A stretch of DNA of 64,000 bases from an uncultured Roseovarius sp. (GTDB lineage: Bacteria > Pseudomonadota > Alphaproteobacteria > Rhodobacterales > Rhodobacteraceae): NCBI GenBank assembly GCA_947496175.1, contig CANMBU010000002.1, positions 682,001 to 746,000 on the forward strand, in the 5' to 3' direction. This document shows positions 38,699-50,144 of the stretch, piece after piece. The position numbers and the translations under genes were made by a program. The notes beneath the pieces are model-generated. The model was given only the letters and a program-made list of their open reading frames with translations. It was not told where the DNA came from and ran no database searches. The stretch's first letter is position 1. Every line of letters starts with the position of its first letter.

Positions 38699-39199
38699 AT
38701 GGCATTATCAGAGCAGTTCCTTCACGAAGACCTTCACCCCATCGACATCGTCGAGCATCTGGCCGAGCACCATGACTGGGATTTCGATCGCATTGCCGAT
38801 GATCAGATCGCCATGGCTGTCGAGGGCCAGTGGCGCACGTATTCTGTCACCCTTGCCTGGTCAAGCTATGACGAGACACTGCGCATGGTGTGCACCTTTG
38901 AAATGGAGCCACCGGAGGACAAGCTGCCGGTGCTCTACGAACTTCTGAATTGTGTAAACGACCAATGCTGGGCCGGGGCGTTCAGCTATTGGGCCGAGCA
39001 GAAACTGATGGTCTACCGCTACGGTCTGATCATGGCGGGCGGGCAGGGGGTCGCGCCAGAACAGATCGACACCCTGATCGGAGCCGCGGTGCTAAGCGCC
39101 GAGCGCTACTACCCGGCCTTCCAACTGGCGGTCTGGGGCGGACGCTCACCCGAAGATGCCATGCAGATCGCCATAGGCGAGGCCTACGGACGGGCCTAG
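38699..39199 (+). CDS. YbjN domain-containing protein
   Basis: 166 residues, soluble, acidic. The pattern HPIDIVEHLAEHHDWDFDRI, then FEMEPPEDKLPVLYELLNCV and the region EQIDTLIGAAVLSAERYYPA is that of alphaproteobacterial YbjN proteins, related to type III chaperone folds. AGAGG precedes the ATG. A tetraloop terminator follows. The housekeeping genes proC and csaA, which I would expect next, start only 10 kb further on. Confidence 0.85.
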   Translation: MALSEQFLHEDLHPIDIVEHLAEHHDWDFDRIADDQIAMAVEGQWRTYSVTLAWSSYDETLRMVCTFEMEPPEDKLPVLYELLNCVNDQCWAGAFSYWAEQKLMVYRYGLIMAGGQGVAPEQIDTLIGAAVLSAERYYPAFQLAVWGGRSPEDAMQIAIGEAYGRA

Positions 39200-39448: not shown

Positions 39449-40150
39449 TTAGACCGACCGAGTAATTCCCCCATCAACCCGGATATTCTGACCCGTGATG
39501 TAGGCCCCGCCCTCTGAAGCCAGAAAGGCCACAACGCTTGCGATCTCACCAAGGGAGTTGCCGTAGCGGCCCATCGGGATCATCGAGCGGAATTCTTCTT
39601 TCTCTGGCAGGCTGTCGATGAACCCTGGCAGCACGTTGTTCATGCGGATGTTTTCGGCTGCGTATTTGTCGGCAAAGAGCTTTGTGAAGGCTGCAAGCCC
39701 GGCGCGCATCACGCCTGAGGTTGGAAACACAGGGTTCGGCTCAAACGCGGCGAAGGTCGAAATGTTGATGATCGCCCCGCCACCCTGCTTTTGCATGATC
39801 GGTGTGACCAGGCGCGAAGGGCGCACGGCGTTCAGGAAGTAGACTTCCATGCCCTCGTGCCAATCCTCATCGGTGAGTTCTAAGACCGGTGCGCGCGGTC
39901 CATGACCGGCGGAGTTCACCAAAACATCGACACGGCCCCAATGGTTCATTGCTGCATCGACCAGCTTTTGCAGGTCTTCGTCAGATTTGTTGGTGCCTGT
40001 GATGCCAATTCCGCCAAGTTCCTTGGCAAGTGCTTCGCCTTTGCCGGACGAAGAGAGAATCCCAACCTTGAAACCATCTGCTGCCAAGGCGTGTGCGCTA
40101 TCTGCGCCCATACCTGATCCGCCCGCTGTAATCAGTGCGACTTTCTCCAT
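39449..40150 (-). CDS. Atypical short-chain dehydrogenase lacking the Tyr-Lys pair
   Basis: 233 residues. The cofactor half is normal: ITAGGSGMG (7-15) and LVNSAG (77-82). In the active site region STFAAFEPNPVFPTSGVMRA there is no Tyr between residues 105 and 162; aligning MRAGLAAF with KAGLIGF of FabG puts Ser145 and Arg149 where Tyr and Lys should be. The rest (NVLPGFIDS; GGAYITGQNIRVDGG) is ordinary. Last gene of the seven-gene operon, 4 bases after the epimerase gene. It may use an altered mechanism or bind substrate without redox. Confidence 0.8.
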   Translation of the reverse strand: MEKVALITAGGSGMGADSAHALAADGFKVGILSSSGKGEALAKELGGIGITGTNKSDEDLQKLVDAAMNHWGRVDVLVNSAGHGPRAPVLELTDEDWHEGMEVYFLNAVRPSRLVTPIMQKQGGGAIINISTFAAFEPNPVFPTSGVMRAGLAAFTKLFADKYAAENIRMNNVLPGFIDSLPEKEEFRSMIPMGRYGNSLGEIASVVAFLASEGGAYITGQNIRVDGGITRSV

Positions 40151-40154
40151 GTGC

Positions 40155-40994
40155 TTATTCCTTTCCTGTATCGTCTGTGCTGAGGTTCAGATGGGCCACG
40201 CCGCTGTTGCCGAGCTCAACGGCCGCGAATGGGCCGCCATGGTGTGTGTTGGCTGGGTCGTGAGGGTCGAGCGGGCCTTCTGCGGCATAGATTTCTTTAG
40301 CGAATTCTTCGGCGTTGTCCTTGGGTCGATAGCCCAAGTGTTGCGCCTTGGCGTTGTCGACTGGCGCACGATCGTTGTTTGACACACCGTAGACTACGCT
40401 GAAGCCTGTAATGGGCGTAGTAATCGCGCCTTCCACCATGTGGATCAGATCATCATAGCTGAGCCAGGTTCCCACAGCGCGTGAATTGGTCGGCTGCGCG
40501 CAAGACAGGATGCGCATGCAGACGGATTCCAATCCGCGCTTATCCCAATAGAGAGAGGCGAGGTCTTCGGCGAAACACTTTGCAAGACCGTAGAAGGTAT
40601 CAGGTTTGTGAGGGGCATCGATACCAATGAAATCCGTTTTCTTGTGCATGCCAACCGCGTGGATGGACGAGGCATAAACAACCCGGCGCAGCTTGTTGCG
40701 ATAGGCGGCCTCCCACACCGTGTAGGCACCATAAAAATTCGGCCCCCACAGCACGTCCATCGGGGCTTCATCGCCAATTGCGCCGAAATGCACGACCATA
40801 TCCGCACCCTCCAGAAGGGCGACCATGGCGTCCAAATTGGTGATATCCGCCTGCACATAGGTCTCATTAGTTGCCAGATTGGAGACGCTGTCGGCTATGT
40901 CTGAAGAGACGAATTCATTGCAGAGTTTTGACAATGGTTCGCGTAGGTACGAGCCGAGGCGGCCAGCCGCGCCGGTGAGAACTATTTTTTTCAT
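40155..40994 (-). CDS. NAD-dependent epimerase/dehydratase family, uronate-dehydrogenase-like
   Basis: 279 residues. GAAGRLGSYLREPL is the NAD loop, VVHFGAIGDE and VVYASSIHAVGMHKKTD match uronate dehydrogenase, and YGLAKCFAEDLASLYWDKRG holds the catalytic Tyr-x3-Lys. Related enzymes oxidise hexuronates at C1. Overlaps the aminotransferase stop by 4 bases. In this operon the substrate could be a sugar-acid or the aldehyde product of the aldolase. Confidence 0.82.
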   Translation of the reverse strand: MKKIVLTGAAGRLGSYLREPLSKLCNEFVSSDIADSVSNLATNETYVQADITNLDAMVALLEGADMVVHFGAIGDEAPMDVLWGPNFYGAYTVWEAAYRNKLRRVVYASSIHAVGMHKKTDFIGIDAPHKPDTFYGLAKCFAEDLASLYWDKRGLESVCMRILSCAQPTNSRAVGTWLSYDDLIHMVEGAITTPITGFSVVYGVSNNDRAPVDNAKAQHLGYRPKDNAEEFAKEIYAAEGPLDPHDPANTHHGGPFAAVELGNSGVAHLNLSTDDTGKE

Positions 40995-42205
40995 GGATTG
41001 GGTCCTTTTAGGTCGGCAACAGCGCGAGCGATGCGATCCATCGCAGCGCCTAACACATCTTCTGAGGCGGCTGTTGAAATGCGGAAAAACGGTGAAAGAT
41101 CATAAGCGCTGCCCGGAACGGCGGCAATGCCAGCAGCCTTCAGAAGATAGGCTGTGACATCGGTATCGGTTGCCAGCGTTTCGCCCTGTGGGGTCTGTGC
41201 CCCGATCAAACCGGCGCAGCCGATCAGGCCATAAAACGCGCCGCCCGGCGCGTCGAGCGTCAACCCCGGTATTTTTGCCACACGCGCGACCACAAGATCA
41301 CGGCGTGCTTCGAAAGCGCGACAGAAATTGCTGACGTCATCTTGCGGCCCATTCAAAGCTGCCGCCGCCGCCGCTTGGGCGACAGAACACGCTCCAGACG
41401 AGATTTGGCTTTGCACTTTGGTCATCGCCGCGATCAAATCCTTGTGCCCCGCGCCGTAGCCAATGCGCCATCCCGTCATGGCATAGGCTTTGGACACGCC
41501 ATTGACCGTCAAGGTGCGGTCTTTCAAGCCCTTGCACAGTGCCGCAAACGATCGGAACACGCGCCCGTCAAACAGGATGTGTTCATAGATCTCATCCGAC
41601 AGGACCAGCACGCGGTCATGATCGGCCAGCACGTCGCCAAGTGCCGCAATCTCAGCATCTGAATAAACCGCGCCCGACGGGTTCGACGGCTGGTTCAAGA
41701 GCAGCCACCGTGTTTTAGGTGTGATGGCGTCGCGCAATTGGTCGGGTGTCAGGAGAAAGCCCGCCTCAGCCGGACATTCCAAAGGCACTGGTACACCGCC
41801 GAGGATAAGCACAATGTCCTTGTACTGACCGAAATAGGGCGCGCAGAGCAGCACCTCGTCGCCCGGCTCGAGTGTGGACATGAAGGCGTTGAATAGCACC
41901 TGCTTGGCCCCGTTCGACACGATCACTTCGTCAAGCGCATAGTCCAGGTGGTTCTCGCGTTTGAACTTGTCCACGACCGCTTGCCGCATCACGAGCGTGC
42001 CATTTGTGGGCGGATACTTCGTCTCGCCCCTGAGAGCGGCCTGATGCGCGGCCTCTTTGATATGATTGGGCGTATCAAAATCCGGCTCACCGAGACCAAG
42101 GTCGATGACGTCCTCACCCCGCGCCATCGCCTCTTTGGCCGCTTGGCTGACCCAGGCAGAAGCGGAGGGTTTAACCGGCGCCAGACGCGAAGACGCAAAA
42201 TTCAT
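40991..42205 (-). CDS. Class I/II pyridoxal-phosphate aminotransferase (aspartate aminotransferase-like)
   Basis: 404 residues. LGLGEPDFDTPNHIKEAAHQ and the PLP lysine in TVNGVSKAYAMTGWRIGYGA (Lys239), with NQPSNPSGAVY and SDEIYEHILFDG, place it in the subgroup Ig aminotransferases. It should turn an amino acid into a 2-oxo acid. The operon order suggests that the amino acid comes from the flavin enzyme and the oxo acid goes to the aldolase. 4-base overlaps on both sides. Confidence 0.9.
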   Translation of the reverse strand: MNFASSRLAPVKPSASAWVSQAAKEAMARGEDVIDLGLGEPDFDTPNHIKEAAHQAALRGETKYPPTNGTLVMRQAVVDKFKRENHLDYALDEVIVSNGAKQVLFNAFMSTLEPGDEVLLCAPYFGQYKDIVLILGGVPVPLECPAEAGFLLTPDQLRDAITPKTRWLLLNQPSNPSGAVYSDAEIAALGDVLADHDRVLVLSDEIYEHILFDGRVFRSFAALCKGLKDRTLTVNGVSKAYAMTGWRIGYGAGHKDLIAAMTKVQSQISSGACSVAQAAAAAALNGPQDDVSNFCRAFEARRDLVVARVAKIPGLTLDAPGGAFYGLIGCAGLIGAQTPQGETLATDTDVTAYLLKAAGIAAVPGSAYDLSPFFRISTAASEDVLGAAMDRIARAVADLKGPNP

Positions 42206-42975
42206 CGCAGCGCCCCCTTTGTTTGCGCAAGCGCCGCATCTGCGGCCCGCGCCAAAAGCCCGGTGTCTGTCGCGATGGCGACAAAGGTGAAGCCTTCGTT
42301 CAAAAGGTCAGCCGCAAAAGCGGGGTCCGTGACCAAGGTGCCGACCGGCATCCCTTTAGCAATCAGTTTTTGCGCCGCAGGTTTGATCAAGGCCCAAACA
42401 TCCGGGTCCATCGGATTGCCCAGTTTGCCAATATCGGCCGCAATATCTGCGGGTCCAAAGAAGATGCCGCTGACACCATCAACCGCGCCAATTGTGTCGG
42501 CTTGTTCTACGGCGGCGCGAGTTTCCAGTTGCAAGAGAACAGCGGTTTCTTCCTCAACCCGCGCCACATAGTCGGAAACGCGCCCAAAGGCCGTTGCTCG
42601 GGTCGCACCAGAAACACCGCGAATGCCGCGAGGCGGGTAGCGTGTCGCGGCCACCGCACGTTCGGCCTCTTCCACCGATTGGATCATCGGAAACAACAGG
42701 CCCGGCGTGCCCAAATCCAACAACCGCTTAACCGCGACGGCGTCGTTCCATTCGACCCGGATAAGCGCCGTAGTGGGAGACGCCGCAAAGGCCTGAAGCT
42801 GGGACAGCACGCTGAAGTAATCGTTGGCGCTGTGTTCCATGTCGATCAGCGCCCAGTCATATCCGGCGGTCGAGACCACCTCTGCGGCGAAGTTGCTGCA
42901 CAGGCTGATCCAAAGACCGATTTGCTTGTCACCGGCAGCAATGGCGCGGGCGAAGGGGTTGGCGGGAAGCTTCAT
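42202..42975 (-). CDS. HpcH/HpaI family class II aldolase
   Basis: 257 residues. Start GLWISLCSNFAAEVVSTAGY, DWALIDMEHSANDYFSVL, VRWND-type RVEWNDAVAVKRLLDLG, metal-binding Glu in LLQLETRAAVEQ and Asp in GIFFGPADIAADIG are the family marks. Members cleave 4-hydroxy-2-oxo acids to pyruvate and an aldehyde. TGATG junction with the flavin oxidase gene upstream, ATGA junction with the aminotransferase downstream. Confidence 0.9.
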   Translation of the reverse strand: MKLPANPFARAIAAGDKQIGLWISLCSNFAAEVVSTAGYDWALIDMEHSANDYFSVLSQLQAFAASPTTALIRVEWNDAVAVKRLLDLGTPGLLFPMIQSVEEAERAVAATRYPPRGIRGVSGATRATAFGRVSDYVARVEEETAVLLQLETRAAVEQADTIGAVDGVSGIFFGPADIAADIGKLGNPMDPDVWALIKPAAQKLIAKGMPVGTLVTDPAFAADLLNEGFTFVAIATDTGLLARAADAALAQTKGALR

Positions 42976-44186
42976 CAGATAATGGCTTTCTCGATGATCG
43001 GCCTGTTCGCCGGGATCCGCTCGTAGTTGAACGGCGACAGATCAAGTGCGCGGTACTCTCCATAGGTCAGCCATTCGGCTGTCCCGCGTCCCATTGCAGG
43101 CGACTGCTGAAGCCCGTGGCCGGAGAAGCCATTGAGGAAGATGAAGTTTGAAAGCTCAGTGTGCGGCCCCATGATCGCGTTGTGATCAAAGGTGTTCATG
43201 GCATAGTGCCCGCCCCAATCGGATTGCACTTTGATGGCTTCAAACTGGGGGATGCGGGTGGCCAGAATGGGCCAGACGTGGTTTTCCCACATCGCGTGAT
43301 CCATCGTATAATCGTCGAAGTCCACAGCCGGGTCGTAGTCGGAATGGCCGCCGCACTGATATGTTCCGCCGCCATTTTCGCGGACATGCACACCTGACGG
43401 ATCGATGGTCAGCGGTAGGTCCTGATCCAGCGGCTGCTCAGCCTTGAATATCCACGAAAAGCGTTTGCGCGGCTCCACCGGCACATCGATGCCCGCCATC
43501 TGGGCAGTGCGTGCAGCGCGTGGGCCGGACGCATTGACGACCTTACCACAAGCGACGACCTCGCCAGAAGCGAGAGTGATGCTTTCGACGCGGGTGCCCG
43601 CCGCGTTGCGGGTGATCGCTACAACTTCGTTCTGGACCCATTCAACCCCGCGTTCGCGGCTTTGACGTCGCCACCAGTCATTGACAGCCGCCCCGTCCCA
43701 ATACCCCTCGTCCACCAGGTTGATGGACCCCAGCACGATGTCGTCCACATTGTAAAAGGGGTAAGCGGTTTTGATCTCTTCGGGTGTCATAAGCAGGGTT
43801 GCCGCGCCAGCCGCCAGTTGCACCTGCTGGCTGTCGCGCAGCACGTCGGCGAAGCCTTCGTTGTCGGCAAAATACATGTAACCGAATGAGCGGATACCAA
43901 GTTTTGGCACCCGGTCATCACCACCCATGTAGCTGCGGATGTTTTTGACGAAGTCGGCGGCAAACTGGCTAATCCGCACGTTCAATTCGGTCGAGAATTG
44001 TTGCCGCATGCAGGAATTTGTGTGCGTGGTCGAGCAGTTCTCATAGGTCATGTCCCGTTCGACAACGAGGACCGAGCCATCGAAATCCTTATTGTCGGAC
44101 AGGAACCAAGCGGTCGAGGCGCCCATGATGGCGCCTCCGATGATGATCACGTCATAGCTTTGCATTGTTGGGTTTTGGTTGCTCAT
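42975..44186 (-). CDS. FAD-dependent amine/amino-acid oxidoreductase (DAO/sarcosine-oxidase-like)
   Basis: 403 residues. FAD loop YDVIIIGGAIMGASTAWFLS, VVERDMTYENCSTTHTNSCM (contact with the isoalloxazine) and C-terminal FLNGFSGHGLQQSPAMGRGT define the DAO superfamily. VPVEPRKRFSWIFKAE is the sarcosine-oxidase-like middle. It probably removes an N-alkyl group or oxidises a secondary amine. Overlaps HyuB stop by 4 bases. The electron acceptor is not apparent. Confidence 0.88.
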   Translation of the reverse strand: MSNQNPTMQSYDVIIIGGAIMGASTAWFLSDNKDFDGSVLVVERDMTYENCSTTHTNSCMRQQFSTELNVRISQFAADFVKNIRSYMGGDDRVPKLGIRSFGYMYFADNEGFADVLRDSQQVQLAAGAATLLMTPEEIKTAYPFYNVDDIVLGSINLVDEGYWDGAAVNDWWRRQSRERGVEWVQNEVVAITRNAAGTRVESITLASGEVVACGKVVNASGPRAARTAQMAGIDVPVEPRKRFSWIFKAEQPLDQDLPLTIDPSGVHVRENGGGTYQCGGHSDYDPAVDFDDYTMDHAMWENHVWPILATRIPQFEAIKVQSDWGGHYAMNTFDHNAIMGPHTELSNFIFLNGFSGHGLQQSPAMGRGTAEWLTYGEYRALDLSPFNYERIPANRPIIEKAII

Positions 44187-45892
44187 ATCTGTTCCCCCCT
44201 TGCGACGGCAGTTTGCACCGCCGCGATGTCCTCAGCGGACAATCCATAGTCCGCCCGAGCCGTTTCTTCTGAAATGTATCCTCGCGCCAAATCGCGTTTT
44301 ACAAGGTCTTTGGGGCGCTCCGCCGGATCGCCGTAGCCCGCGCCTCCGGGGAACGCCATCACCACCTTACGGCCGTGTGGGACGAATTGCTTTCCCTTGA
44401 CCCGCATTGCTGATCCATCGTCCTGAGCGATGGTCGTTGGTGCGCCGTTCTGGCCACCTCGGCGGCCCCGAGCGGGGTGCTGGCTGCGGTCAAACATGGC
44501 CTGAATATCGAACTCGTGGCCTTCCTGTGCGCCGACTTCCATGTATTGCCCCAAACCGCCACGCGTCTTGCCTGCGCCGCCACTGTCGGGGCGCAATTCC
44601 TTACGCCAGATAATGACGGGACCTGCGTGTTCCGTGGCCTCGATGGGCATGGTCATCACGCCCGATGGGAAGGCTGTCGCGTTCATGCCGTCGTGGTCTG
44701 GCCGTGCACCAGACCCACCCGAGTTGAATGTCAAAACCTCAGACCGGCGCGCGTCCGCGGGTGCCGGAGCATCGCTGCGAGGACGCAAGGAGACCTGGAA
44801 ATTGCACAGACATCCTGCGCCTTCGGCAGGCACCAGACCCGGCACGATCTTGTCAAAGGCGTCATAGACGGCGTCGGGCACAAAATGCCCCACGATATGG
44901 CGTAGTGCGACAGGTGCGGGGTGCAGCGCGTTGACGATTGAGTTTTCCGGCGCTGTGATTTCAAACGGTTCAAGTGAGGCTGCGTTGTTGGGTATCTCCG
45001 GTGCAATCGCCACTTTCAGCGCATAGCACGCATAAGCCTTGGTATAGACAAGCGGGCAATTAATGCCCTTTTTGTCGAGGCCTGAGGTGCCGGTAAAGTC
45101 GGTGACGATCCGCTCGCCTTCCACGCTGACTTTCACCTTCAGAGTGATGGGCACGTCGAAGCCGTCCATTGTCATCTCGCCGGTGGCAGATGTCTGCGGC
45201 AAGGCTGCAATCGCCTCGATCGTCGCCCGGCGCGAATTTTCGAGGATGAATTCTGCGATGCCATCCAGATGTTCGAGGGCGAACTCCTCCATCATGTCGA
45301 TCAGGCGGCGGTGTCCAATCTCGTTACAGGTTGCCAGCGCATAAATGTCACCGATCAGCTGGTCCGGTTCGCGAACATTGCCCCGGATGATCCGCACCAA
45401 TGACTCATCCACTTCGCCCTTTTCCGCAAACTTCATGATCGGGATGTAGAGCCCTTCCTCATAGACGCTCTGTGCGTCCGCGCCAAAGCCGCGCCCCCCG
45501 ATGTCCACGATATGCGCCGTGCAGGCAAAAAATCCGACCAAAGTGCCCATGTGGAAAGAGGGCGTGACCATCGTAATGTCGTGCAGATGCCCCGTGCCCT
45601 CCCATGGGTCATTGGTGATGTAGACGTCGCCATCGAACATGTTCTGCCGCCCGATCCGACGGATGAAATGCGCGACGGCATCAGCCATAGCGTTCACGTG
45701 GCCAGGGGTCCCGGTCACAGCTTGGGCCAGCATATTGCCATGCGTGTCATAGACACCGGCAGACAGGTCGCCTGCCTCGCGGACTGAGGTTGAGAACGCC
45801 GTGCGCACCAACGCCTGCGCCTGTTCTTCGACGACCGAAATCAGGCGGTTCCACATGACCTGATAGGCGACTTTGGAGTGTTCCTGAGTCAT
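44183..45892 (-). CDS. Hydantoinase/oxoprolinase subunit B family protein (HyuB)
   Basis: 569 residues. DPVTY-like start YQVMWNRLISVVEEQAQALV, RTAFSTSVREAGDLSAGVYD, VYITNDPWEGTGHLHDITMV and FFACTAHIVDIGGRGFGADA are the family marks; GGQNGAPTTI and FPGGAGYGDP close it. HyuA/HyuB pairs open hydantoins, 5-oxoproline or similar lactams with ATP. Overlaps HyuA by 4 bases. Length fits N-methylhydantoinase or acetone-carboxylase-related B subunits, but no gamma subunit gene is seen. Confidence 0.92.
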   Translation of the reverse strand: MTQEHSKVAYQVMWNRLISVVEEQAQALVRTAFSTSVREAGDLSAGVYDTHGNMLAQAVTGTPGHVNAMADAVAHFIRRIGRQNMFDGDVYITNDPWEGTGHLHDITMVTPSFHMGTLVGFFACTAHIVDIGGRGFGADAQSVYEEGLYIPIMKFAEKGEVDESLVRIIRGNVREPDQLIGDIYALATCNEIGHRRLIDMMEEFALEHLDGIAEFILENSRRATIEAIAALPQTSATGEMTMDGFDVPITLKVKVSVEGERIVTDFTGTSGLDKKGINCPLVYTKAYACYALKVAIAPEIPNNAASLEPFEITAPENSIVNALHPAPVALRHIVGHFVPDAVYDAFDKIVPGLVPAEGAGCLCNFQVSLRPRSDAPAPADARRSEVLTFNSGGSGARPDHDGMNATAFPSGVMTMPIEATEHAGPVIIWRKELRPDSGGAGKTRGGLGQYMEVGAQEGHEFDIQAMFDRSQHPARGRRGGQNGAPTTIAQDDGSAMRVKGKQFVPHGRKVVMAFPGGAGYGDPAERPKDLVKRDLARGYISEETARADYGLSAEDIAAVQTAVARGEQI

Positions 45893-47976
45893 TGGACAGC
45901 TCCCTTCGTCACGACATCGATACAGCCGTCAGGCTGGCGGATGGCGTCCCGACTGGCGGGAACAATGATGGTCGTCTCAGCTTCGGTTACGGCGGCAGGG
46001 CCATGTGCGCGTTGGCCTGCTTCCATGAGGCTCCTGTCGATGACACGGGCATTAAGGTATTTGCTGGATGCCGCATCAAAGAGCTGCCTCGTACCGTTCG
46101 ACACAACAAGCGCGCTGCCGTCTGTGATTTCACTGCGCGCGACGTCTTCGGGCGGCGTTGTGGCATTCACCGACCAGACGGTGATCTCGATGTCCATGCC
46201 GGCGACGGGGCGGCCAAAGCGCTTTGTGTAATCCTCCTCAAACCGCCCCTCGAAGGTCGCAGCATCAGGGTTCATCGCCTGCTCTTCGGTCAGGTCAATC
46301 GGAATTTCCCAACCCTGACCGGAATAGCGCATGTAGACCTTGAATTCCGACAGGATCGGACTGACTTCATCGCACGTGCGCACAAAACCAGTCGCCTCGG
46401 CATTAAGATCCGTCAGAAGGCTCTTAATCTTGTCCGCATCAAAGTCGCTCAACTTCATGTAGACCGAACGATTGGCCTCAAAGCTGAACGGTGCGCGCAG
46501 GAAGCCAATGGCCGAGCCGACGCCCGCACCGGGCGGCACAAGCAGCCGTTCAACCCCAAGCTTTTCGCAAAGTCGCCCGGCATGCAGCGGGGCCGCGCCG
46601 CCAAAGGCGATCATGGTGTACTCGCTCAGGTCTTCACCATTTTCGACAGCGTGAACGCGGGCGGCATTGGCCATGTTTTCGTCAACTACCTCAGCAACGC
46701 CAAAGGCCGCCTCGACTGCGTCCATATCCAGCGTGTCGCCCACATGTGCACTCAGTGCTTGTTCTGATTGATCGGGATGAAGGGCGATCGAACCACCGGC
46801 AAAATTGTTTGGGTCCAACTTGCCCAGGACAAGATCGGCATCCGTGACACCTGGTCGTTCACCCCCGCGCCCATAACAGGCGGGCCCGGGCTCGGACCCG
46901 GCGCTTTCAGGGCCGACGCGGATTTGCCGCATCCCGTCCACATGGGCAAGGCTTCCGCCGCCCGCACCAATTTCGACCATATCAATCACCGGGATCGAAA
47001 TCGGCATGCCCGAGCCCTTCTTGAACCGGTAAGTCCGCGCGACCTCAAAAACGCGACTGGTCTTGGGCGTCTGGTTCTTGATCAGGCAAATCTTGGCCGT
47101 GGTTCCGCCCATGTCGAAGGACAGGACCTTGTCCAGACCATATCGGGCAGCAATATGGGCCGCGAAGACCGCGCCACCTGCTGGTCCGCTTTCCACAAGG
47201 CGTACGGGGAAATCCGCTGCGTTCTGGATCGAGATGATCCCGCCCCCCGAATGCAACAGGAAGATGCGACAGGCGACACCTTCGCCGCGCAGCCGGTCTT
47301 CCAGCCGTCCAAGGTAGGAGGCCATCAGCGGTTTGATATAGGCGTTGGCCACGACCGTGTTGAACCGTTCGTATTCGCGCATCTGCGGCGATACCTCGGA
47401 CGAGATCGACACCGAAATATTCGGCAGCTTTTCGGCCAAAACATCACGTACCAACTGCTCATGTTTTGGGTTGAGGTAAGAGTGGATCAAACCAACTGCG
47501 ACGCTTTCGAAGCCCGCTTCTGCAATGCGGTCAACAACGGCTTCGACATCTGCACGCTCAAGCTCTACCAGGATTTCTCCTTTGGCATTCACGCGTCCAG
47601 GGACAGTGAAACGCATCTGACGCGGCAACAGCGGATCAGGCAGGTTCAGGTTAAGGTCGTATTGTTCAAACCGGCTTTCGGTGCGCATCTCGATCACATC
47701 ACGGAAGCCTGCGGTTGTGACAAGCGCGGTTTTGGCTCCGCGCCGTTCGATCAGCGCGTTGGTGGCCAATGTGGTCCCATGAATGATCTGTTCAATCTGC
47801 GAAGGCTCTACGCCCGCCTTGGCGCAGACCTGATGCATTCCGTCGATGATCGCGTTTTCAGGGGCCGCATAGGTCGTCAGGACTTTCACCGAATACTGTT
47901 TGCTCGCCTTTTCCAGAACGACATCTGTGAATGTGCCACCAATATCGACGCCCATTCGAATAGATTCGGCCTTCAT
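45889..47976 (-). CDS. Hydantoinase/oxoprolinase subunit A family protein (HyuA)
   Basis: About 695 residues. ASKHA-type ATP fold: MGVDIGGTFTDVVLEKASKQ, HGTTLATNALIERRGAKTAL, LLHSGGGIISIQNAADFPVR, SGPAGGAVFAAHIAARYGLD and FDMGGTTAKICLI. It phosphorylates the ring amide so that HyuB can open it. ATG 47976 has GAGG 5 bases upstream; a GTG at 47994 is less likely. The gap to the regulator gene holds a perfect 14-base palindrome. Confidence 0.92.
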   Translation of the reverse strand: MKAESIRMGVDIGGTFTDVVLEKASKQYSVKVLTTYAAPENAIIDGMHQVCAKAGVEPSQIEQIIHGTTLATNALIERRGAKTALVTTAGFRDVIEMRTESRFEQYDLNLNLPDPLLPRQMRFTVPGRVNAKGEILVELERADVEAVVDRIAEAGFESVAVGLIHSYLNPKHEQLVRDVLAEKLPNISVSISSEVSPQMREYERFNTVVANAYIKPLMASYLGRLEDRLRGEGVACRIFLLHSGGGIISIQNAADFPVRLVESGPAGGAVFAAHIAARYGLDKVLSFDMGGTTAKICLIKNQTPKTSRVFEVARTYRFKKGSGMPISIPVIDMVEIGAGGGSLAHVDGMRQIRVGPESAGSEPGPACYGRGGERPGVTDADLVLGKLDPNNFAGGSIALHPDQSEQALSAHVGDTLDMDAVEAAFGVAEVVDENMANAARVHAVENGEDLSEYTMIAFGGAAPLHAGRLCEKLGVERLLVPPGAGVGSAIGFLRAPFSFEANRSVYMKLSDFDADKIKSLLTDLNAEATGFVRTCDEVSPILSEFKVYMRYSGQGWEIPIDLTEEQAMNPDAATFEGRFEEDYTKRFGRPVAGMDIEITVWSVNATTPPEDVARSEITDGSALVVSNGTRQLFDAASSKYLNARVIDRSLMEAGQRAHGPAAVTEAETTIIVPASRDAIRQPDGCIDVVTKGAVQ

Positions 47977-48038
47977 CTGTTCCTCCACATGCACACACGA
48001 TCAGCATGTCGACATGGGACCATGGCAGATCAGAAATC

Positions 48039-48052
48039 AAATCAATTGATTT
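48039..48052. promoter_or_regulatory. Palindromic operator candidate upstream of the HyuA operon
   Basis: A perfect palindrome AAATCAATTGATTT lies 63 bases before the HyuA ATG and 18 bases past the regulator's stop. A separate promoter controlled by the LysR protein may start the seven-gene operon here. Confidence 0.45.
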
Positions 48053-48069
48053 TCTTCACTCTATAGATT

Positions 48070-48993
48070 TTATTTATCTTCTGCTGCGCTCGGCCGAATA
48101 GTAGCCGCAATGTCACTCGCCTTTTCGACAAACCGTGGCGCCCGATCTGAGTTGAAGCGCGCGAAAAAGGTCAAAGGCGGCGCAGTCCAATCTGAAATGG
48201 GCGTTTTCAACCGGCCTGCGTCCAACTCGCTTTGTACCAGCGACTTTGGAAGAAGCGCCACACCCATCCCCTCGCTGACCATCGGCAGACACGCAGACAA
48301 CGCGCTGGAATGGACGATCTTGCCAGCATCCAACCCTCGCTCCTTGGCCAATTCATGCAAGGCATTCCCCGCTGCCGTGTGACGCGCATGGGTTAGAACT
48401 GCGTGTTCAAAGAAACGCCCAACCGATGCTCCACCCGCAAGACTGTTCGCAACCTCTGCGTTCGCCACCCAAACATAGGTTTCGCTGGAAAGCCGTCTTT
48501 CGCCCGTCGCCCGCGACGCAAACGGGCCATTTTGCAGGGCGAGGTCAAGCTGCCCTTCTCGCAGGCGCTCTTCAATTTGCCGAGACAGGTCGACCTGAAG
48601 TTCAACCCGAAGGTTGGGATATTCCCGCCGAAGCTGACGCAGGAAGGGTTGAAGCCAGGTACAGGCGACCAGTTCTGTCACACCCAGCCGAAAACGTTCT
48701 TCGATAAGCTCCTGCCGACCCGCCGCTTCCAGCAACGCCTCTCCCGCCCGAAGCACGTCCCGCGTCCGCTCAATAAGCTCTTTGCCTTTGGTGGTCAGAC
48801 GTACAGAACCGGCGTCGCGATAAAGAAGCGTGATATCTAAGGCAGCCTCTAATGCAGATATCCGCGATGAGATGTTGGGTTGAGTTGTGCCAAGGGCAGC
48901 GGCTGCTGCTCTAAAGGTTCCCATGTCCACAACAAATGAAAAGGCTTCGAGCTGCTTGAGTGTGATCCGGCTTTTTATCATCTTCAATCTCAT
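48070..48993 (-). CDS. LysR family transcriptional regulator
   Basis: 307 residues. N-terminal winged helix: ITLKQLEAFSFVVDMGTFRA and AAAALGTTQPNISSRISALE. The C-terminal part is the usual periplasmic-binding-like effector domain. It sits at the head of the HyuA operon, in the same direction, so it probably senses the operon's substrate. Start is ATG 48993 or 48981; the first lies inside an inverted repeat, and neither has a good ribosome binding site. Confidence 0.88.
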   Translation of the reverse strand: MRLKMIKSRITLKQLEAFSFVVDMGTFRAAAAALGTTQPNISSRISALEAALDITLLYRDAGSVRLTTKGKELIERTRDVLRAGEALLEAAGRQELIEERFRLGVTELVACTWLQPFLRQLRREYPNLRVELQVDLSRQIEERLREGQLDLALQNGPFASRATGERRLSSETYVWVANAEVANSLAGGASVGRFFEHAVLTHARHTAAGNALHELAKERGLDAGKIVHSSALSACLPMVSEGMGVALLPKSLVQSELDAGRLKTPISDWTAPPLTFFARFNSDRAPRFVEKASDIAATIRPSAAEDK

Positions 48994-49325: not shown

Positions 49326-50144
49326 ATGGATACAGAAACGGTGGCCCAGAATGGCCTTGTGCTTTTGGGATGTGGCAAAATGGGGTCGGCTATGCTCTCG
49401 GGCTGGCTCGAAGGTGGTTTGCCTGCCGGGTCTGTTTGGGTGATTGATCCCAAGCCGTCCGACTGGCTGCAGTCCACGGGCGTTCACATCAATATCGACC
49501 TGCCGCCGCATCCGGCCATTGTGCTGATTGCCGTCAAGCCTCAGATGATGGGAGACGCCCTGCCGACGATTGCGGCGATGGGCAACGGGGACACGCTCTT
49601 TGTCTCTGTCGCCGCCGGCACCGAGATTGCGTCTTTTGAAGCCGAACTTGGGGATCAAAGCCCGATCATTCGCGTGATGCCCAACACGCCCGCTGCCGTG
49701 GGCAAGGGCATATCCGCCATGATCGGCAATGCCCATGTGCGCCCGGATCAGCTTGATATGGCCCAGGACCTGCTTGAGGCCGTGGGGCAGGTGGTGCGGC
49801 TGGAGAGCGAAGACCAGATGGATGCTGTCACAGGCCTCTCCGGATCGGGTCCGGCCTATGTGTTTCATATGATCGAATGCATGGCCGCGGCGGGTGAGGC
49901 GCAGGGGCTTGCGCCTGAACTGGCGATGCAACTGGCCAAAGCGACGGTCGCGGGGGCAGGGGCATTGGCCGAGACGGCGGAAGAAACACCTGCGGAGTTG
50001 CGGGTCAACGTCACCAGTCCCAATGGCACCACACAAGCCGGGCTTGAGGTGCTGATGGATGCCACTCACGGCTTGCCGGAATTGATGGCGAAGACCGTTG
50101 CGGCCGCGACGGACCGTTCAAGGGAATTGCGCAATGACGGATGA
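49326..50144 (+). CDS. proC: Pyrroline-5-carboxylate reductase
   Basis: 272 residues. NAD(P) motif LVLLGCGKMGSAMLSGWLEG, IAVKPQ, IIRVMPNTPAAVGKGISAMI, the C-terminal DAVTGLSGSGPAYVFHMIEC and VTSPNGTTQAGLEVL are intact. Last step of proline synthesis. ATG 49326 has CAGGGA 8-13 bases upstream. Its end overlaps the csaA start by 11 bases. Confidence 0.95.
   Translation: MDTETVAQNGLVLLGCGKMGSAMLSGWLEGGLPAGSVWVIDPKPSDWLQSTGVHINIDLPPHPAIVLIAVKPQMMGDALPTIAAMGNGDTLFVSVAAGTEIASFEAELGDQSPIIRVMPNTPAAVGKGISAMIGNAHVRPDQLDMAQDLLEAVGQVVRLESEDQMDAVTGLSGSGPAYVFHMIECMAAAGEAQGLAPELAMQLAKATVAGAGALAETAEETPAELRVNVTSPNGTTQAGLEVLMDATHGLPELMAKTVAAATDRSRELRNDG

Follow-up and report, generated by a model that had tools for sequence, protein, structure and literature searches.

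What compound is handled by a run of seven coupled enzyme genes for which no named pathway is known? The question is raised by a block in a 64,000-nucleotide stretch of DNA (hereafter, the window) from an uncultured Roseovarius sp. of the family Rhodobacteraceae (contig CANMBU010000002.1, positions 682,001 to 746,000). There, a LysR-family regulator gene precedes genes for a ring-opening pair (HyuA and HyuB), a DAO-family flavin oxidoreductase (DAO), an HpaI-type aldolase (HpaI), an aminotransferase (AAT), a uronate-dehydrogenase-like enzyme (UDH), and a short-chain dehydrogenase/reductase (SDR). Comparison across genomes leaves little doubt that the block is one real, mobile, and modular catabolic unit. 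Judging from the predicted enzymes, it probably enables marine bacteria to use a cyclic nitrogen compound as food through ATP-driven lactam opening. The reading that we prefer, with a probability of about 0.38, is that of a catabolic operon, spread by horizontal transfer, that serves to degrade a cyclic amine carboxylate (either an imino acid or the N-methyl form of one).

The gene block and its transfer

Eight open reading frames were confirmed between positions 39449 and 48993, all on the minus strand. In reading order, they are as follows.

48070..48993, minus strand, LysR-family regulator (Pfam HTH_1, LysR_substrate)
45889..47994, minus strand, HyuA, ATP-binding subunit of a predicted ATP-dependent lactamase of the oxoprolinase/hydantoinase family (Pfam Hydant_A_N, Hydantoinase_A)
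44183..45892, minus strand, HyuB, predicted metal-binding ring-opening subunit (Pfam Hydantoinase_B)
42975..44186, minus strand, DAO, DAO-family flavin oxidoreductase (Pfam DAO)
42202..42975, minus strand, HpaI, HpaI-type class II pyruvate aldolase, an optional gene (Pfam HpcH_HpaI)
40991..42205, minus strand, AAT, aspartate-aminotransferase-like class I aminotransferase, an optional gene (Pfam Aminotran_1_2)
40155..40994, minus strand, UDH, uronate-dehydrogenase-like extended SDR, a proposed hemiaminal or hemiacetal dehydrogenase (best solved relatives are uronate dehydrogenases)
39449..40150, minus strand, classical SDR, the optional last gene (Pfam adh_short_C2; best solved chain, 4o6v)

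This layout of seven leftward enzyme genes, joined by overlaps of 1 to 4 bases or a 4-base gap with LysR ahead, is the one described in a first-pass annotation of the sequence. The gene names given there fit the Pfam families, and the uronate-dehydrogenase-like name rests on a search of the PDB. LysR is the first gene of the block and lies on the same strand as the enzyme genes, not divergently, with 75 bases between it and HyuA. Overlaps of 4 bases join HyuA to HyuB, HyuB to DAO, HpaI to AAT, and AAT to UDH; DAO and HpaI overlap by 1 base, and 4 bases separate UDH from SDR. For HyuA, an internal ATG six codons past the listed GTG is a possible start (window positions 47976 to 47994). Pfam analysis of the eight genes found no transporter, carbamoylase, or aldehyde dehydrogenase, in agreement with the earlier remark on the first two. 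Pattern scans for promoters and terminators returned numbers similar to those from shuffled sequence (5 versus 3.6 and 9 versus 10.6, respectively).

The surroundings of the block provide strong evidence, by sequence comparison, that LysR and the seven enzyme genes were transferred as one unit. The block sits between YbjN (38699 to 39199) and ProC (ATG at 49326), names that are backed by Pfam (YbjN and P5CR_dimer), and these two genes are ~10 kb apart in the window. Eleven other genomes were examined, among them the only one of the same genus (G278), and in all 11 the ybjN and proC matches lie <100 bases apart; at the search thresholds used, neither UDH nor HyuB gave a match in G278. In another genome (G073), the block is found at a different site, and its proteins are highly similar to those of the window (DAO, 94% identical; HyuB, 96%; UDH, 93%; HpaI, 91%; AAT, 95% over the portion present there). 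Outside the block, ProC and YbjN are 71% and 81% identical between the two genomes. Because the flanking genes are adjacent elsewhere and the identity of the block to G073 exceeds that of ProC and YbjN, transfer as a unit is indicated. No repeats were found within either end region of the block, and the two ends, compared in both orientations, have no common word of nine or more bases.

Recurrence and modularity across genomes

In named genomes, 275 relatives of DAO were detected, and 80 loci were kept; for 43 of the 80, the sequence extends 6.5 kb or more to either side of DAO. Additional sets consisted of 36 loci from genomes of the window's family, 15 plasmid loci (counted from 16 fetched of 542 records), and searches of 295 genomes of the family, the counts from which are valid at the thresholds used. 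Among the 43 covered loci, 29 contain both HyuA and HyuB, 32 contain UDH, and 40 contain HyuB, UDH, or both. LysR was present in 24 (on either strand, within 6.5 kb of DAO), HpaI in 14, AAT in 12, and SDR in 5. The usual core is HyuAB, DAO, and UDH, while HpaI, AAT, and SDR are optional. Of the 295 family genomes, 183 have DAO, 98 have HyuB, and 69 have UDH; in 58 of the latter, UDH lies at most 5 kb from a listed DAO, and in 48 it is directly adjacent. The complete core, or some of its genes, can be found in Rhodobacterales, Rhizobiaceae, a Paraburkholderia plasmid, and metagenome-assembled genomes (MAGs) labeled Granulosicoccaceae and Thiotrichaceae.

The first-pass annotation had argued that the genes form one route and are not a chance group, and it proposed a search for conserved synteny. 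The gene order does recur in many genomes, and in the window the block lies undivided between ybjN and proC, so the idea of a chance group can be set aside. The claim of a single route was upheld in part; recurrent order and movement as one block favor it, but DAO alone, DAO-UDH, UDH alone, and HyuAB alone are each found in some genomes. The gene set is modular rather than all-or-none.

The optional genes largely accompany a ring opener. AAT is present in 23 of the 80 loci, all 23 of which have a ring opener, and HpaI is present in 24, of which 23 have one; the exception (L085) starts inside a HyuB fragment at a contig end. Among the 36 family-genome loci, AAT occurs in 7, each with HyuAB (7/7), and 3 of the 5 HpaI loci are without a nearby ring opener. 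HyuA, HyuB, and UDH accompany DAO in 11 of the 15 plasmid loci, and 8 of these carry AAT too. A thiamine pyrophosphate (TPP)-dependent enzyme was found in 7 of the 8 and HpaI in 1 (Paracoccus seriniphilus, L112). The order on rhizobial and Shinella plasmids is HyuA-HyuB-AAT-UDH-DAO, with the TPP-dependent enzyme (PRK08199 family, above the cutoff in the one scanned) in place of the marine HpaI and, often, with branched-chain-type ATP-binding cassette transporters nearby. Because both enzyme kinds would act on a 2-oxo acid, this exchange fits an AAT product. Regarding SDR, a 72% identical homologue directly precedes a 50% identical DAO homologue on two Sinorhizobium americanum plasmids. Since the type of transporter near the loci varies (e.g., a betaine transporter at L112), uptake does not identify the substrate.

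Certain loci depart from the usual core. DAO-UDH stands without a labeled ring opener in reach in 4 of the 43 covered loci, and in 7 of the 43 a homologue of the M19 dipeptidase is there instead. Such homologues (Pfam Peptidase_M19, membrane dipeptidase) were detected in 8 of the 43 and recur near DAO-UDH where HyuAB is missing (L054 to L056, L072, and L135). In a MAG labeled Thiotrichaceae (L049), HyuB and DAO are separated by an additional class I/II aminotransferase gene (L049:1702-2829), and an IS256 transposase gene follows SDR. A plasmid of Paraburkholderia phenoliruptrix (L116) carries the order HyuAB-UDH-DAO-SDR-SDR, with a diaminopropionate ammonia-lyase annotated a few kilobases beyond on the other strand.

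Predicted enzymes and the proposed order of the steps

The proposal that HyuAB opens a ring was supported, with a lactam as the probable target. The HyuA translation contains the ATP-site motifs DxGGTxTD, DxGGT, and GxxPGP, as listed for the large subunit of ATP-dependent lactamases in an excerpt of PMC8453981; HyuA was aligned to CapA (6yra_A), and its nearest relative in the PDB is N-methylhydantoinase. In HyuB, the positions of Asp41, His99, Asp102, and His124 of CapB (6yra_B), which the same excerpt describes as metal ligands, are all kept. REPLACEMENTS tell function: at L094 (an Amylibacter MAG), the operon reads DAO-HpaI-UDH-PxpA-PxpB-PxpC. The 662 bases that precede DAO, the usual place for the end of HyuB, contain no HyuB match; because the contig is short, HyuAB may lie elsewhere in that genome. 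PxpA and the PxpC domain model TIGR00724 score above their cutoffs at L094, and PxpB and the PxpC equivalog model score below theirs. Because PxpABC (5-oxoprolinase) replaces HyuAB there, the target ring of HyuAB is probably 5-oxoproline-like. PxpABC is also present at a distant Variovorax locus (DAO, 35%).

DAO was earlier assigned the removal of an N-alkyl group, which the comparisons do not show. By sequence, the best solved relative of DAO is an L-proline dehydrogenase (1y56_B), with the sarcosine oxidase subunit SoxB also among the nearest. DAO scores 71.7 bits against the NCBIfam model for sarcosine oxidase (SoxB), the cutoff of which is 529.45, and the lysine in the GFK stretch of SoxB, the functional role of which we presume, aligns to glutamine. 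Sarcosine-oxidase-like N-demethylation as the only flavin step was rejected on these two grounds. The structural model of DAO has a mean predicted local distance difference test (pLDDT) score of 82.6, with values of <50 at residues 52 to 56, 319 to 335, and 356 to 358, and by fold it matches heterotetrameric sarcosine oxidase and L-proline dehydrogenase nearly equally. From sequence and model, DAO most likely oxidizes a secondary amine that carries a carboxylate. The same genome encodes a second DAO copy outside the window (77% identical; L128, G000:C1:1074566-1075771); the other labeled genes are absent from the 18 kb around it.

UDH was compared in an alignment of 98 distinct homologues, including the window's own, from loci chosen by a DAO, UDH, or HyuB match. 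Ser111, His113, Tyr136, Lys140, and Arg174 are kept in all 98 and Ser165 in 96. Asn112, in contrast, is replaced by Ile or Val in 97 (Ile in the window) and kept in 1, a change first noted among 69 sequences; Ser75 and Gly164 remain in 1 and 5 sequences, respectively. Some of the roles that we attach to the catalytic residues and Arg174 are presumed. The others follow PMC4476818. Three uronate-type homologues from a class-wide search (L194, L195, and L196) keep Ser75, Asn112, and Gly164, and at L196 a KdgD gene scoring above its cutoff lies ~2 kb away, as expected of real uronate catabolism. Since Asn112 is exchanged, UDH is, with high probability, not a uronate dehydrogenase, although the catalytic residues are kept. 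True uronate catabolism was rejected for the block on the lost Ser75/Asn112/Gly164 pocket and on the lack of a sugar-acid dehydratase in the unit. The class-wide search retrieved a UDH match in 15 of 385 genomes, 4 of them in the window's own family, in mixed contexts. At L189 and L190, from another alphaproteobacterial family, an Ile112-type UDH is flanked on one side by an agmatinase-family gene (scanned at L189) and on the other by genes that resemble kbl-tdh by eye, the first of which is an enzyme of the class I/II aminotransferase fold by Pfam.

The best solved relative of AAT is aspartate aminotransferase B (6f35). HpaI scores 287.9 bits against TIGR02311 (cutoff, 368.8), and its nearest relatives are HpaI/GarL aldolases; in alignment to 4b5s and 2v5j, its active-site positions, with presumed roles, look kept. 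The earlier suggestion that the aminotransferase product passes to the aldolase is plausible.

In the order that we prefer, DAO would remove two hydrogens beside the ring nitrogen of a cyclic imino acid, and the resulting iminium would hydrate to a ring hemiaminal. UDH would then use NAD+ to oxidize the ring carbon of the HO-C-N-C-COOH unit, giving a lactam that HyuAB could open with ATP to an amino dicarboxylic acid. AAT would convert this amino diacid to a 2-oxo diacid, HpaI would split a 4-hydroxy-2-oxo acid into pyruvate and a small aldehyde acid, and SDR would oxidize or reduce the aldehyde, with LysR sensing the substrate or an intermediate. UDH is plausible as a lactam-forming dehydrogenase because HO-C-N-C-COOH is the nitrogen analogue of the uronate HO-C1-O-C5-COOH and because the catalytic residues and Arg174 are kept while polar pocket residues are lost. 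As HpaI needs a 4-hydroxy-2-oxo acid, the candidate substrates are 4-hydroxyproline-type or 4-hydroxypipecolate-type rings, from which the aldolase step would yield glyoxylate or malonate semialdehyde. One locus without DAO (L160) reads LysR-HyuA-HyuB-AAT, followed by a tripartite ATP-independent periplasmic (TRAP) transporter; this suggests that AAT can act directly on the HyuAB product, which may there be a primary amine. Related clusters are adjoined at L168 by a 4-hydroxyproline epimerase gene (above the cutoff) and at L169 by a pyrroline-5-carboxylate reductase gene (above the cutoff) and a Pro_racemase-family gene (below model cutoffs). Neither a 4-hydroxyproline epimerase nor a HypD-type deaminase is in the unit, and the 4-hydroxyproline epimerase route does not match the block.

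Several observations weigh against this order. The activities of the block's enzymes are predictions, three short stretches on the active side of the DAO model have low confidence, and the match of the model to sarcosine oxidase is as good as that to proline dehydrogenase. DAO lies without other labeled genes nearby in 13 of the 36 family-genome loci, and among 11 fetched loci that have HyuAB but no DAO, AAT is present at a single one (L160). Ring opening of a free imine would give a semialdehyde, for which an ordinary aldehyde dehydrogenase could suffice and no ATP would be needed. The lost Asn of UDH has been tied to carboxylate binding (PMC4476818, in excerpt), which calls for caution in assuming a carboxylate held in the same way. 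HyuB and Pro_racemase genes lie within 10 kb in 2 of 45 genomes having both (~0.3 expected; P of ~0.04, post hoc, among the 295 genomes), a proximity that is only suggestive. UDH also occurs in other settings: the Ile112-type enzyme directly follows an L-arabinonate dehydratase (above the curated cutoff) at L191:7251-9840, a hint of a sugar substrate in that genome, and UDH lies beside an agmatinase at L189, beside a TRAP-type solute-binding protein at L148, and with TPP-HyuA-HyuB-AAT but no DAO at L197. These contexts keep a sugar-type or aldehyde-type substrate open.

A different order, which shares with the first-pass annotation the sequence HyuAB, flavin enzyme, aminotransferase, would place HyuAB first on an N-substituted lactam, after which DAO would split the N-alkyl bond, UDH would oxidize the released aldehyde or aldose, and AAT and HpaI would degrade the amino acid. 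Precedent comes from nmpABC, which couples HyuAB-type genes to an amino acid oxidase (PMC12866759 and PMC6987047, in excerpt) and in which HyuAB precedes the flavin enzyme, contrary to our preferred order. The fold neighbors of DAO, including sarcosine and dimethylglycine enzymes, and the betaine or amino-acid-type transporters near some loci are likewise consistent with HyuAB acting first. However, the unit lacks an aldehyde dehydrogenase, the SoxB lysine is a glutamine in DAO, some loci hold DAO-UDH without HyuAB, and L160 holds HyuAB-AAT without DAO. The sequence of steps proposed earlier is thus possible, but the modularity fits DAO-UDH before HyuAB-AAT somewhat better, and we regard HyuAB acting first as the main rival, somewhat less probable than the preferred order.

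If the substrate were instead a conjugate of a sugar or sugar acid with an amino acid (an Amadori-type or opine-like lactam), UDH would oxidize the sugar end and HpaI would cleave the derived 2-keto-3-deoxy acid. The relation of HpaI to GarL, the arabinonate dehydratase at L191, a tartronate-semialdehyde-reductase-like gene (below the cutoff) at L056, and a DUF4147/MOFRL gene at L135, presumably of the glycerate kinase type, fit such a conjugate. The missing sugar-acid dehydratase, the changed UDH pocket, and the near inactivity on uronates of UdhOg, a homologue with the same Asn-to-Ile change (PMC4476818, in excerpt), make it improbable. A hydantoin route, in which HyuAB would open an N-alkylhydantoin and DAO would act on the N-alkyl amino acid, is more improbable still. 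It draws on the PDB relative of HyuA, on urate/allantoin degradation genes detected by Pfam beside a HyuAB-DAO-UDH cluster (L082) and beside UDH alone (L152) and by eye beside L057 and L067, and on a Zn-dependent hydrolase, possibly a carbamoylase, annotated on the other strand ~7 kb from DAO at L116; the window unit has no carbamoylase (relatives were not searched for one), and L094 has PxpABC in place of HyuAB. Least probable is a loose set of unrelated activities under a common promoter. HpaI, AAT, and SDR are each frequently missing, as such a set would allow, but the order recurs, the genes overlap in the window, and the block moves as one piece.

If the preferred reading is true, a widespread uncharacterized catabolic block would gain a function, namely in the cycling of dissolved organic nitrogen. 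Even with the order wrong, the modular map (HyuAB or PxpABC; HpaI or a TPP enzyme) limits the range of substrates to be considered in many genomes.

Comparison with known systems

The first-pass annotation knew of no named pathway with this gene set, and the open-access literature searched contains no description of one; most subscription papers lay outside this scope. Open-access papers on agropinic genes and on homarine, N-methylpyrrolidone, and N-methylproline routes likewise held nothing on the set. The genes agaEFG for agropinic/mannopinic acid on octopine Ti plasmids, HyuA/B-like genes with a flavin oxidase for an N-linked lactam, may be a further precedent for HyuAB acting first. DAO matches on Agrobacterium plasmids, among the 60 rows sampled, are 24 to 25% identical to the window DAO and may or may not include AgaE.

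The nmpABCDEF operon for N-methylpyrrolidone degradation (Alicycliphilus BQ1 and Paracoccus ZQW-1; PMC12866759 and PMC6987047), compared here by the descriptions in excerpts, resembles the block in joining HyuA/HyuB-type ATP-dependent lactam opening and an amino acid oxidase in one operon, with the HyuAB step before the oxidase. A UDH, an HpaI aldolase, and a class I aminotransferase are not mentioned in those excerpts, nor are the roles of nmpD and nmpE; the nmp operon has a succinate-semialdehyde dehydrogenase, whereas the block has no aldehyde dehydrogenase. Caprolactamase CapAB (6yra; PMC8453981, in excerpt) is, like HyuAB as predicted, a two-subunit ATP-dependent lactamase, and its four CapB metal ligands are identical in HyuB. 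However, Tyr136 of CapB is Phe in HyuB, and Cys410-Cys411 has no Cys counterpart (one falls in an insertion, and one is Phe), so the HyuB pocket differs from that of CapB. Plain caprolactamase was rejected, as HyuA and HyuB score 468.5 and 180.4 bits against NCBIfam caprolactamase models with cutoffs of 1000. The 5-oxoprolinase PxpABC, which takes the place of HyuAB in the operon at L094, belongs to an unrelated protein family.

UDH shares with uronate dehydrogenases (AtUdh, 3rft; UdhOg, PMC4476818, in excerpt) the fold family, the catalytic Ser/Tyr/Lys, His113, Ser165, and Arg174; it differs in the change of Asn112 to Ile or Val, in the loss of Ser75 and mostly of Gly164, and in its gene neighbors. 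UdhOg, from Oceanicola granulosus, is described as having the same Asn-to-Ile change plus a Gly-to-Phe change, with Km values of 55 to 142 mM and kcat/Km values of 0.03 to 0.11 on three uronates, compared with kcat/Km values of 342 to 829 for the Agrobacterium tumefaciens enzyme on glucuronate; its authors proposed other natural substrates (PMC4476818, in excerpt). The exact Ile-Phe pair of UdhOg occurs in none of the 98 homologues, and Phe occurs in 21 (20 with Val and 1 with Asn). From the shared Asn-to-Ile change, UdhOg is a possible member of the UDH clade and perhaps an orphan enzyme of the proposed pathway. A bolder idea, which we think rather unlikely, is that UDH is the first example of a lactam-forming hemiaminal dehydrogenase clade, UdhOg perhaps being of the same kind, and that marine and soil bacteria degrade cyclic imino acids by a make-the-lactam, break-the-lactam route, the flavin and NAD-linked steps making the lactam and ATP-driven opening, transamination, and retro-aldol cleavage breaking it down. 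If true, this would help to explain UdhOg as an orphan uronate dehydrogenase and add a hemiaminal-to-lactam reaction to the extended SDR family. The block as a whole is a variant among modules that pair HyuAB with a flavin enzyme for lactams, its possible novelty lying in the UDH step.

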